Below, one piece after another: positions 39,482-40,927 of a stretch of DNA of 64,000 nt. Made by a program: the position numbers and the translations under genes. The stretch comes from Candidatus Terasakiella magnetica (GTDB taxonomy: Bacteria > Pseudomonadota > Alphaproteobacteria > Rhodospirillales > Terasakiellaceae), in contig NZ_FLYE01000001.1 of assembly GCF_900093605.1 (NCBI RefSeq), positions 372,001-436,000 of the forward strand, given 5' to 3'. How positions within the stretch are numbered: the first letter of the stretch is position 1; every line of letters begins with the position of its first letter. The notes under the pieces were generated by a model. That model was not told where the DNA came from. It made no database searches and was given only the letters and a program-made list of their open reading frames with translations.

Positions 39482-39751
39482 TTACATCTTTTTCTTTGCT
39501 GCGCAGGGGTTCTTCGCAGCGCATGGGTTTTTGGCTGCACACGGGTTCTTCGCAGCACACGGGTTTTTAGCCGCACAGGGATTTTTGGCGGCGCAAGGGT
39601 TCTTTGCTTCACAAGGATTATGATGGCCTGCAACTTCAAACGAGCCTTGGGGGGCAGCAAGCGCTGCAGGAATGACAGCAGTACTCATGGCACCAACCAT
39701 TACGGCACAAGCAACACCGTTGATCACTGTTTTTTTATTAAGGACGGACAT
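39482..39751 (-). CDS. Secreted cysteine hexapeptide-repeat protein (NPCxAK)n
   Basis: Unrecognised 89 aa protein. Residues 1-32 look like a signal peptide (KK at 6-7, a hydrophobic stretch about 10-30, cut after ALA). Residues 45-86 are seven perfect hexapeptides, NPCEAK once then NPCAAK six times, then KKM; two His (43-44) stand just before. Mature protein would carry seven regularly spaced cysteines, six residues apart, and many lysines. The DNA units differ at many third positions although the peptide does not, so the peptide is under selection. GGAG lies 8 bases before the ATG. Metal binding or cross-linking is a guess; no known family is assigned. Confidence 0.8.
   Translation of the reverse strand: MSVLNKKTVINGVACAVMVGAMSTAVIPAALAAPQGSFEVAGHHNPCEAKNPCAAKNPCAAKNPCAAKNPCAAKNPCAAKNPCAAKKKM
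39494..39619 (-). repeat. Seven tandem 18-base coding units
   Basis: Seven in-frame 18-base units encode NPCxAK. Proline is coded CCT, CCC, CCG, CCG, CCA and CCC in units 2-7, and Ala, Cys and Lys codons vary likewise; units are not exact DNA copies. No spacers are present. Confidence 0.9.
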
Positions 39752-39873
39752 GATGGAAACTCCATTTCAAAATAAGAACATATAAAGCGGCTCTGTTTGC
39801 TATGGGCCGATCATTATTTGTCTCATATTTTTAAGGAAGGCGGGGATCACGTCGCTTCACAAGACTGTGAGCA

Positions 39874-40551
39874 TCAAACATCAAGGGGCCAACAATTGGG
39901 GGCAGCAGAGCCAAAAGCCGCCAACTTGGAGATCAATTCAAAATCAACATCAATACTACACGATACTTTTATAGGGTCTGGTTGATCGAAAATTTTAGAG
40001 GAAAAAGTAAACTCAAGCTGTTCAACATCAGAGAGTAAATTGATAAAGCTCTCTTTTGTCAGATAGTTAACACCTTCATCACATTTCTGTTTTGACTGTT
40101 TTTTTGCACAACGTAACTTATGGGGGGCAAAATATATTTCACGACTAATGGCATTGCCTGCTTGTATCGGTTCGGGCTTGGCTTCGCTAATAATCTCATC
40201 TTCCACCCGGGCTTCTGTACCCTTAAATTTATGAACCGACTGCCATACCTGATTATAAGTTTGTCCGCCAAGCGTAAAAGATACAGTCTCTTTTTGCACC
40301 ACTGCATTATGCCCTGTGTGCCCGCTATTGGCATAAGCAACCCTTGCACCGATACGAATATATTTCTGAGTGTCCTCTGGATGATATTGATAAAAAATCA
40401 ACATCACTTGCTCTGGTGCAAAAAGCGTTAGCTGGGCGCCACGAACAAGATGATATCCCTGCATCAAGACACCACCAAAAGCCATTAAAAAAGCGGCTAA
40501 GGCGAGGATATCCGTTTTGCGCTCAATCTCTATATAAGGAAATTTGTTCAT
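39874..40551 (-). CDS. Membrane-anchored protein of unknown function
   Basis: I do not recognise this 225 aa protein. It has a short charged N-terminus, one membrane helix (about residues 14-36) and an extracytoplasmic domain of about 185 residues that looks rich in beta strands (for example VSFTLGGQTYNQVW near 90). Four cysteines cluster in the last third (KLRCAKK, KQKCDEG, KVSCSID, PNCWP), which may form two disulphides in the periplasm. It starts 7 bases after the 94 aa gene and its stop lies 122 bases before the NPCxAK gene, same strand. Probably an accessory envelope protein. Confidence 0.7.
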   Translation of the reverse strand: MNKFPYIEIERKTDILALAAFLMAFGGVLMQGYHLVRGAQLTLFAPEQVMLIFYQYHPEDTQKYIRIGARVAYANSGHTGHNAVVQKETVSFTLGGQTYNQVWQSVHKFKGTEARVEDEIISEAKPEPIQAGNAISREIYFAPHKLRCAKKQSKQKCDEGVNYLTKESFINLLSDVEQLEFTFSSKIFDQPDPIKVSCSIDVDFELISKLAAFGSAAPNCWPLDV

Positions 40552-40558
40552 CGCTTGT

Positions 40559-40843
40559 CTAGAGCTCAGACAAGCACTGAGGATATCTCAGCTTAAACTT
40601 AAACTGCAAAGACTCCTTCAAGCCCGGATAAATCTTTTTAAGCTTTTCACAATCAGCATCACTTAAAGCGGAAAGCGGTCCACTTGCTGGGCCGGGGGCA
40701 GGAGCTGAAGGTGGGGGCCCTTTAATAAATGACGGTGCAGGCATTAATGTAGGTGAAGGCGGAATACCTTCTTCATTTGCTTGAACATCATTGCCAAGGA
40801 CAATGCTTACAAAGAGAATTAAACAACCTACAAATAAACGCAT
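40559..40843 (-). CDS. Small exported proline-rich protein, unknown function
   Basis: Unrecognised 94 aa protein. A signal peptide spans about residues 1-22 (hydrophobic FVGCLILFVSIVLG, cut after VQA). A proline-, alanine- and serine-rich stretch follows (about 28-58, PPSPTLMPAPSF and onward), then a short helical end with two cysteines (DADCEKLKK and YPQCLSEL) that could pair. The ATG at 40843 has AGG 6 bases upstream; a GTG one codon earlier is less likely. It is seven bases before the 225 aa membrane gene, so they form an operon. A TATAAT (minus strand, 40865-40860) lies just upstream. Confidence 0.65.
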   Translation of the reverse strand: MRLFVGCLILFVSIVLGNDVQANEEGIPPSPTLMPAPSFIKGPPPSAPAPGPASGPLSALSDADCEKLKKIYPGLKESLQFKFKLRYPQCLSEL

Positions 40844-40927
40844 CACACACCTAAAGATTATTATAATTATGAACTAAACTTTAGAGTGCATTAAATCACA
40901 CAACGAAAACCCACACAAGCTTTGACT

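Follow-up and report, generated by a model that had tools for sequence, protein, structure and literature searches.

What could be the role, and who the partner, of a small protein whose regular array of cysteines falls outside every Pfam and NCBIfam model? The question is raised by a gene in the window, the 64,000-nucleotide stretch of DNA analysed here (G000:C1:372001-436000, where G000 is the 3.68-Mb genome of Candidatus Terasakiella magnetica). The gene lies on the minus strand at 39482-39751, with its ATG start at 39751 and its stop at 39484-39482, exactly the ORF that a preliminary description had given without a strand, and it encodes a protein of 89 aa.

The array gene and its protein

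Translation bears out the seven NPC(A/E)AK units, the two His and the KKM end previously described: the layout is MSVLNKKTVINGVACAVMVGAMSTAVIPAALAAPQGSFEVAGHH followed by NPCEAK, six NPCAAK and KKM, with GHH between the signal-like part and the NPCEAK unit. The seven hexapeptides (residues 45-86; 39494-39619, minus strand) are seen in the translation and the codon table and also in the DNA, where TRF detects a tandem array with a period of 18 and its multiples. Residues 1-32 (MSVLNKKTVINGVACAVMVGAMSTAVIPAALA; 39656-39751, minus strand) are kept in congeners and by eye show K6-K7, then a long run of hydrophobic residues, then an ALA|A-type end. This N-terminus looks like a Sec signal, which makes the earlier label of a secreted protein plausible from sequence alone. 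Seven of the eight cysteines are within the units and one is within the signal-like part; those of the array are strictly six residues apart and form neither CxC nor CC pairs. A PDB sequence search with the protein returned no relative at E up to 1, and a structure model is of low confidence throughout (pLDDT 47.6), with the array modelled as disordered.

Metallothioneins are small, Cys-rich proteins of low complexity with CxC or CC clusters. The window protein is likewise small, Cys-rich and of low complexity, whereas its cysteines are six apart with no CxC or CC and its N-terminus is signal-like; no metallothionein model matched it, the one AtDEF-like match (E 0.31) being below threshold. 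Two ORFs of 225 and 95 aa lie upstream on the same strand (39874-40551 and 40559-40846) and match no Pfam or NCBIfam family above cut-off. They were rejected as operon partners, since the congeners (stretches L143, L146 and L142) do not have them next to the array gene.

Selection on the array

The seven units have a mean pairwise nucleotide identity of 75%, against 79.3 +/- 1.8% expected when synonymous codons are drawn by the usage of six neighbouring genes, and the observed value is lower than 99.95% of 2,000 such draws, in keeping with the earlier remark that the units use differing synonymous codons. Comparison with two congeners gave dN 0.11 and dS 1.8 (L086) and dN 0.10 and dS 1.9 (L085), a dN/dS of ~0.05-0.06 that rests on these two sequences, dS against L087 not being estimable. 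Low DNA identity between units together with dN far below dS indicates that the peptide has been kept, not the DNA. The array peptide is under purifying selection and its units are synonymously saturated, which supports the view that the repeat is old and maintained by selection. Repeat number varies slightly between congeners. Such slight differences would suit a neutral low-complexity expansion without function, a reading that is scarcely credible in the face of the dN/dS, the synonymous saturation, the wide spread of the arrays and the recurrent partner described below. Three of 31 array matches in 60 relatives are interrupted by one internal stop.

A widespread family of NPC arrays

A scan of genome contigs from 84,980 species recovered 286 coding relatives. 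Analyses of loci use the best 80 of the 286, which represent 79 distinct loci; by record title these are mostly from beta-, gamma- and alphaproteobacteria and more rarely from Rokubacteria, Nitrospinae and two cyanobacterial records, and the closest-scoring named relative among them is from Terasakiella brassicae (L006, 76% identity). They contain 104 distinct arrays with 4-37 NPC (median 10). The distance from one NPC to the next is six residues in 747 of 1,056 cases, and within these 747 units A or G follows Cys in 729 and K or R occupies the sixth position in 721. With a proposed family defined by a signal-like start and at least four NPC units, the window protein, which has seven, belongs to it. 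The scan thus finds the combination of signal-like start and NPC array, first noted in a single protein, to recur in many genomes, which is more than chance.

Some relatives are stand-alone arrays after a signal-like start. In other relatives arrays lie on either side of, or ahead of, a SoxA/TsdA cytochrome c domain, and further fusions are with cytochrome P460, YHS (a match scoring just below the Pfam cut-off), thioredoxin and DUF2282 (bufferin) domains. The literature searched contained no mention of NPCAAK, and the terms NPCNPC, KNPCA and NPCAA gave nothing relevant among the papers listed.

DUF6969 is the most frequent neighbour of the arrays

DUF6969 (PF22308), a conserved histidine-rich family annotated only as a domain of unknown function and not mentioned in the literature searched, is the most frequent neighbour of arrays. 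A profile search placed it at 55 of the 79 array loci (best 80 of 286 relatives), using an HMM built from 52 sequences of these loci themselves, some of which end at contig edges. The other 24 loci are from 23 genomes, 14 of which have DUF6969 elsewhere, including one fragment (model positions 2-49) and one weak match (E 3.5e-29); nine genomes, accounting for 10 of the 79 loci and including Motiliproteus coralliicola (L082), have no DUF6969 match. Other neighbours by locus are DUF302 (18), a sulphur transporter (15) and DUF3179 (14), counts over the same 79 loci that derive from single-linkage BLAST clusters with one Pfam-confirmed representative each and may include spurious members. No paper in the literature searched treats DUF302 and DUF3179 together.

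Across the window's class, DUF6969 is found in 90 of 385 genomes and the NPCxxKNPC DNA pattern in 30 of 385. Hand comparison of the two genome lists shows DUF6969 in 28 of the 30 pattern-positive genomes (Fisher p = 1.6e-17, kinship uncorrected). The two exceptions are G211, which has one isolated match that is probably due to chance, and G352, which has five matches in a genome that is 91% complete. Array matches occur in 17 of 60 relatives and DUF6969 in 23, with both present in 15 of the 17; G038, which has clear arrays, and G055 lack DUF6969, and the congener G001 has DUF6969 with no array match. The exact NPCxxKNPC pattern is absent from 62 of the 90 DUF6969-positive class genomes. What chiefly weakens the association is that arrays also occur without DUF6969, and DUF6969 without a detected array. 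A search for phage relatives of DUF6969 found none.

The genome studied here has a single DUF6969 gene (G000:C45:80793-81389, plus strand; 289 bits, 2.6e-86) and with it the second feature by which the proposed array family is defined. The window array gene is on contig C1, and the putative partner is invisible near it because DUF6969 sits on another contig, C45. Divergent from DUF6969 runs the gene of another NPCA-array protein (L111 7692-8660; 322 aa if the longest reading is taken), which has a CFECH motif and weak P460 similarity (23.2 bits against a cut-off of 27).

A 24-nt element precedes both the array gene and DUF6969

Comparison of upstream regions and a genus-wide search revealed a 24-nt element, TCACAGTCTTGTGAAGCGACGTGA, at 39847-39870 on the minus strand, 95 nt before the array ATG, with another copy in that genome at its DUF6969/P460 locus (G000:C45:80656-80679). 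The pattern TCACRNTYTNNTGANNNNNYGTGA was written from the upstream regions of congener array genes and the P460/DUF6969 locus. In six genomes of the genus it has 15 matches with at most one mismatch, compared with two for the reversed control pattern. Nine of the 15 are exact and all nine precede an array gene (G000, G002, G003 and G004) or DUF6969/P460 (G000, G002, G003, G004 and G005); the six one-mismatch matches adjoin unrelated genes. Seven of the nine exact sites were used to write the pattern, and the two independent ones (G003:C286 and G004:C59:89878) are both before DUF6969. G003 and G004 have no array protein beside DUF6969 in the stretch seen, and their exact sites are confined to the upstream regions of the array gene and of DUF6969. 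The congener G001, with DUF6969 and no array match, has no element before DUF6969 (best site, six mismatches), and in the window 39847-39870 is the only site with fewer than three mismatches.

Outside the genus, at eight array loci, the element is found in L113, L114 and L124 with one, two and two mismatches, in the first two ~85-100 nt before the likely array start codon; L036, L063, L115, L123 and L129 have no match better than four mismatches. Through the shared element the window gene is linked to DUF6969 by evidence that does not depend on gene order. Taking neighbourhood, co-occurrence and the shared element together, we conclude that array and DUF6969 very probably belong together.

Genes around DUF6969

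From the 62 class genomes with DUF6969 and without the exact pattern we sampled 40 DUF6969 loci, with 20 control regions from the same genomes. Other Cys-repeat ORFs, with units such as CGAKAKCGAC, SPCAAEQP, NPCAGH and CNPCAAAK, are present at 15 of the 40 loci and at none of the controls; by the filter used, 25 of the 40 have no Cys-repeat ORF. An FGE-sulfatase-like protein is found at nine and a P460-like protein at seven of the 40 loci, each at 0/20 controls. A Pfam census of neighbours (148 of 153 picked ORFs) counted FGE five times and P460 three times, fewer than the BLAST locus counts because at most four ORFs per locus were taken. ECF sigma genes were rejected as neighbours: most of an apparent 21/40 are an out-of-frame ORF over DUF6969, and real ECF sigma genes are present at no more than four of the 40 loci (L158, L159, L179 and L185).

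On the Burkholderia glumae plasmid NZ_CP035902.1 the product of the gene directly before DUF6969 (L153 4064-4333) is 89 aa long, looks secreted and is built of CGPKCASKCGAK units, which conform to C-[GAP]-x-K and contain no NPC. This sequence hints that the shared core of the arrays may be C-x-x-K rather than NPC. A DUF2282-DUF692-DUF2063-type-DoxX cluster lies 6-9 kb from DUF6969 on the same plasmid. The order on a Skermanella plasmid is DUF6969, NPC array, DUF302, sigma-70 and NrsF; the last is the putative anti-sigma factor by which DUF2282, DUF692 and DUF2063 genes of Caulobacter are controlled under chromium and cadmium (PMC3511200). The same filter detected no Cys-repeat ORF at plasmid DUF6969 loci of Sinorhizobium, Azospirillum and Ciceribacter, a result of little weight given that it overlooked the array on the Skermanella plasmid.

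The recurrence of haem proteins raises the alternative that arrays serve periplasmic haem proteins (P460, SoxA/TsdA-type cytochrome c) as tails for assembly or anchoring, with the short window protein as a free scaffold, perhaps disulfide cross-linked. Fusions of arrays to haem domains are numerous, the second array of the genome itself has weak P460 similarity, and P460-like proteins recur at DUF6969 loci as above. We regard this alternative as doubtful, however, as arrays also stand alone or are fused to DUF2282, YHS or thioredoxin, and the Burkholderia glumae and Skermanella stretches seen contain no annotated cytochrome gene.

The FGE-sulfatase-like protein is secreted-looking, with its best NCBIfam similarity to EgtB, SenA and PvdO, all far below cut-off. 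It occurs by DUF6969 or arrays at L166, L167, L168, L176, L178, L180, L187, L190 and L192 and also at L035, L059, L071, L072 and L083. The Pfam family counted most often among the scanned neighbours of the class DUF6969 loci L158-L197 is DUF2336 (8/148), which on an Azospirillum plasmid (L152) likewise comes after DUF6969.

DUF6969 has a confident model and no convincing structural relative

The AlphaFold model of DUF6969, made with 49 sequences, is of high confidence (pLDDT 93.0, pTM 0.91) and shows an alpha/beta protein with no signal-like start. Foldseek against the PDB gave a best E of 0.72 (probability 0.02), a second aligner (VIA) a best Z of 3.1 over 88 residues with an rmsd of 4.2, and the sequence profile a best E of 0.45 against the PDB; the absence of a convincing PDB match does not prove a new fold. 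Invariant residues (numbered as in L036), most of them on predicted strands, include H54, D59, D62, Q68, Y70, H72, H74, R75, E78, H81, H83 and H114, and this His/Asp/Glu/Tyr set would be suited to a metal site. DUF6969 was also considered as a divergent MNIO and rejected, hhalign giving a probability of 0.1 over 14 columns with an MNIO profile of two sequences.

Comparison with MNIO-modified peptides

The best parallels are peptides modified by MNIO enzymes. Bufferins and captophorins are peptides associated with copper stress that are exported through Sec or carry Cys repeats, and captophorin/oxazolin repeats are 5-mers with Lys-Cys (PMC12452194, PMC12668002). Captophorins and oxazolins (EGKCG-repeat; fontiphorin, HvfA) resemble the system described here in pairing a Cys-repeat precursor, whose start in the window protein is signal-like by eye, with a dedicated cytoplasmic partner, here putative. 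Groups of MNIO precursors have a Lys-Cys or Cys-Lys dyad or DUF2282 (PMC12668002), whereas the window unit, NPCxAK, has six residues and neither dyad, and the partner here is DUF6969, which has no detectable similarity to MNIO. Neither DUF6969 nor NPC appears in the main text of PMC12452194 or PMC12668002.

Bufferins, DUF2282 precursors encoded with MNIO, DUF2063 and often DoxX, are exported Cys peptides, as the window protein is predicted to be, and at three loci their genes occur next to NPC or CxxK arrays or in fusion with them: L074, where DUF2282, MNIO and DUF2063 adjoin an array-DUF2282 fusion; L019, with the order array, DUF6969, DUF2282-like precursor (by eye), MNIO and DUF2063; and the Burkholderia glumae plasmid. 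The window protein might then be an ordinary bufferin or captophorin made by an MNIO enzyme, with which it shares its anatomy of a signal-like start and Cys repeats and to which the L074 fusion and the L019 gene order would point. This is very improbable, unless the assembly lacks an MNIO gene that the organism has: the genome has no match to MNIO (PF05114), in a search whose control was positive in 2 of 14 known genomes, and the protein has no DUF2282 match and no Lys-Cys or Cys-Lys dyad. By analogy, the window protein may work like a bufferin, though membership of that group fails, and the comparison suggests that an action of DUF6969 on the array could parallel that of MNIO on bufferins.

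Proposed mechanism

We propose that the array precursor is made with a Sec signal, that cytoplasmic DUF6969, most simply a metal-dependent modifying enzyme, would bind it and act on the C-[A/G]-x-[K/R] cysteines before export, and that the exported peptide, alone or as the tail of a haem protein, would serve as a periplasmic soft-metal (copper-like) chelator or redox buffer. Judged from sequence, the whole of this mechanism, with modification of the array by DUF6969 and metal chelation or redox buffering by the product, has in our estimate a probability of about 45%. The preliminary description had offered metal binding, cross-linking and modification side by side; DUF6969 and the bufferin links at the three loci would favour modification with a metal or redox role, leaving cross-linking as a less probable alternative.

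The array could also be exported unmodified, as a plain periplasmic thiol array acting as a metal buffer or a disulfide/redox sink, with DUF6969 as a chaperone, metal-loading factor or sensor. Regularly placed cysteines with Lys and a disordered model need no modification, DUF6969 is without a relative among known enzymes, and some arrays occur without it. Free thiols, however, are commonly oxidised in the periplasm, and a plain chelator would need no recurrent cytoplasmic partner; we therefore consider export without modification possible but rather unlikely.

Modification by DUF6969, our preferred reading, would mean that modified Cys peptides for export can arise by a route other than that of MNIO and unrelated to it, and would bear on copper and soft-metal defence and on array-carrying haem proteins. 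A family of 286 relatives, without a name in the literature searched, is tied to one uncharacterised protein, and the system would be categorically new if that protein proves to be an enzyme. A broader proposal, that DUF6969 represents a new fold and a class of metal-dependent peptide-modifying enzyme whose substrates are NPCxxK arrays and their CxxK-type relatives, a new class of modified exported peptides that in many bacteria would be joined to cytochromes as relays for metal or electrons, is tentative.

Additional proteins near the arrays

A multihaem c-type cytochrome adjoins arrays at L022 (7338-8627), L064 (6205-7476), L082 (6036-7214), L071 (5430-6683) and L023 (413-1681) and has similarity to ExtKL/Cyt554 models below cut-off; the genomes of L064, L071 and L082 have no DUF6969 match. 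Near arrays in L016, L028, L036, L044, L063, L064 and L082 is a small secreted-looking protein, cupredoxin-like by eye, that ends in a conserved YSCPLNxTPDY, the L036 copy having no Pfam match. Finally, genes of an arsenosugar-type set, comprising an ArsS-like radical SAM protein, TIGR04282/TIGR04283 glycosyltransferases and a TVP38-FAD oxidoreductase, are found near arrays or DUF6969 at L037, L043, L050, L068, L069, L076 and L153.
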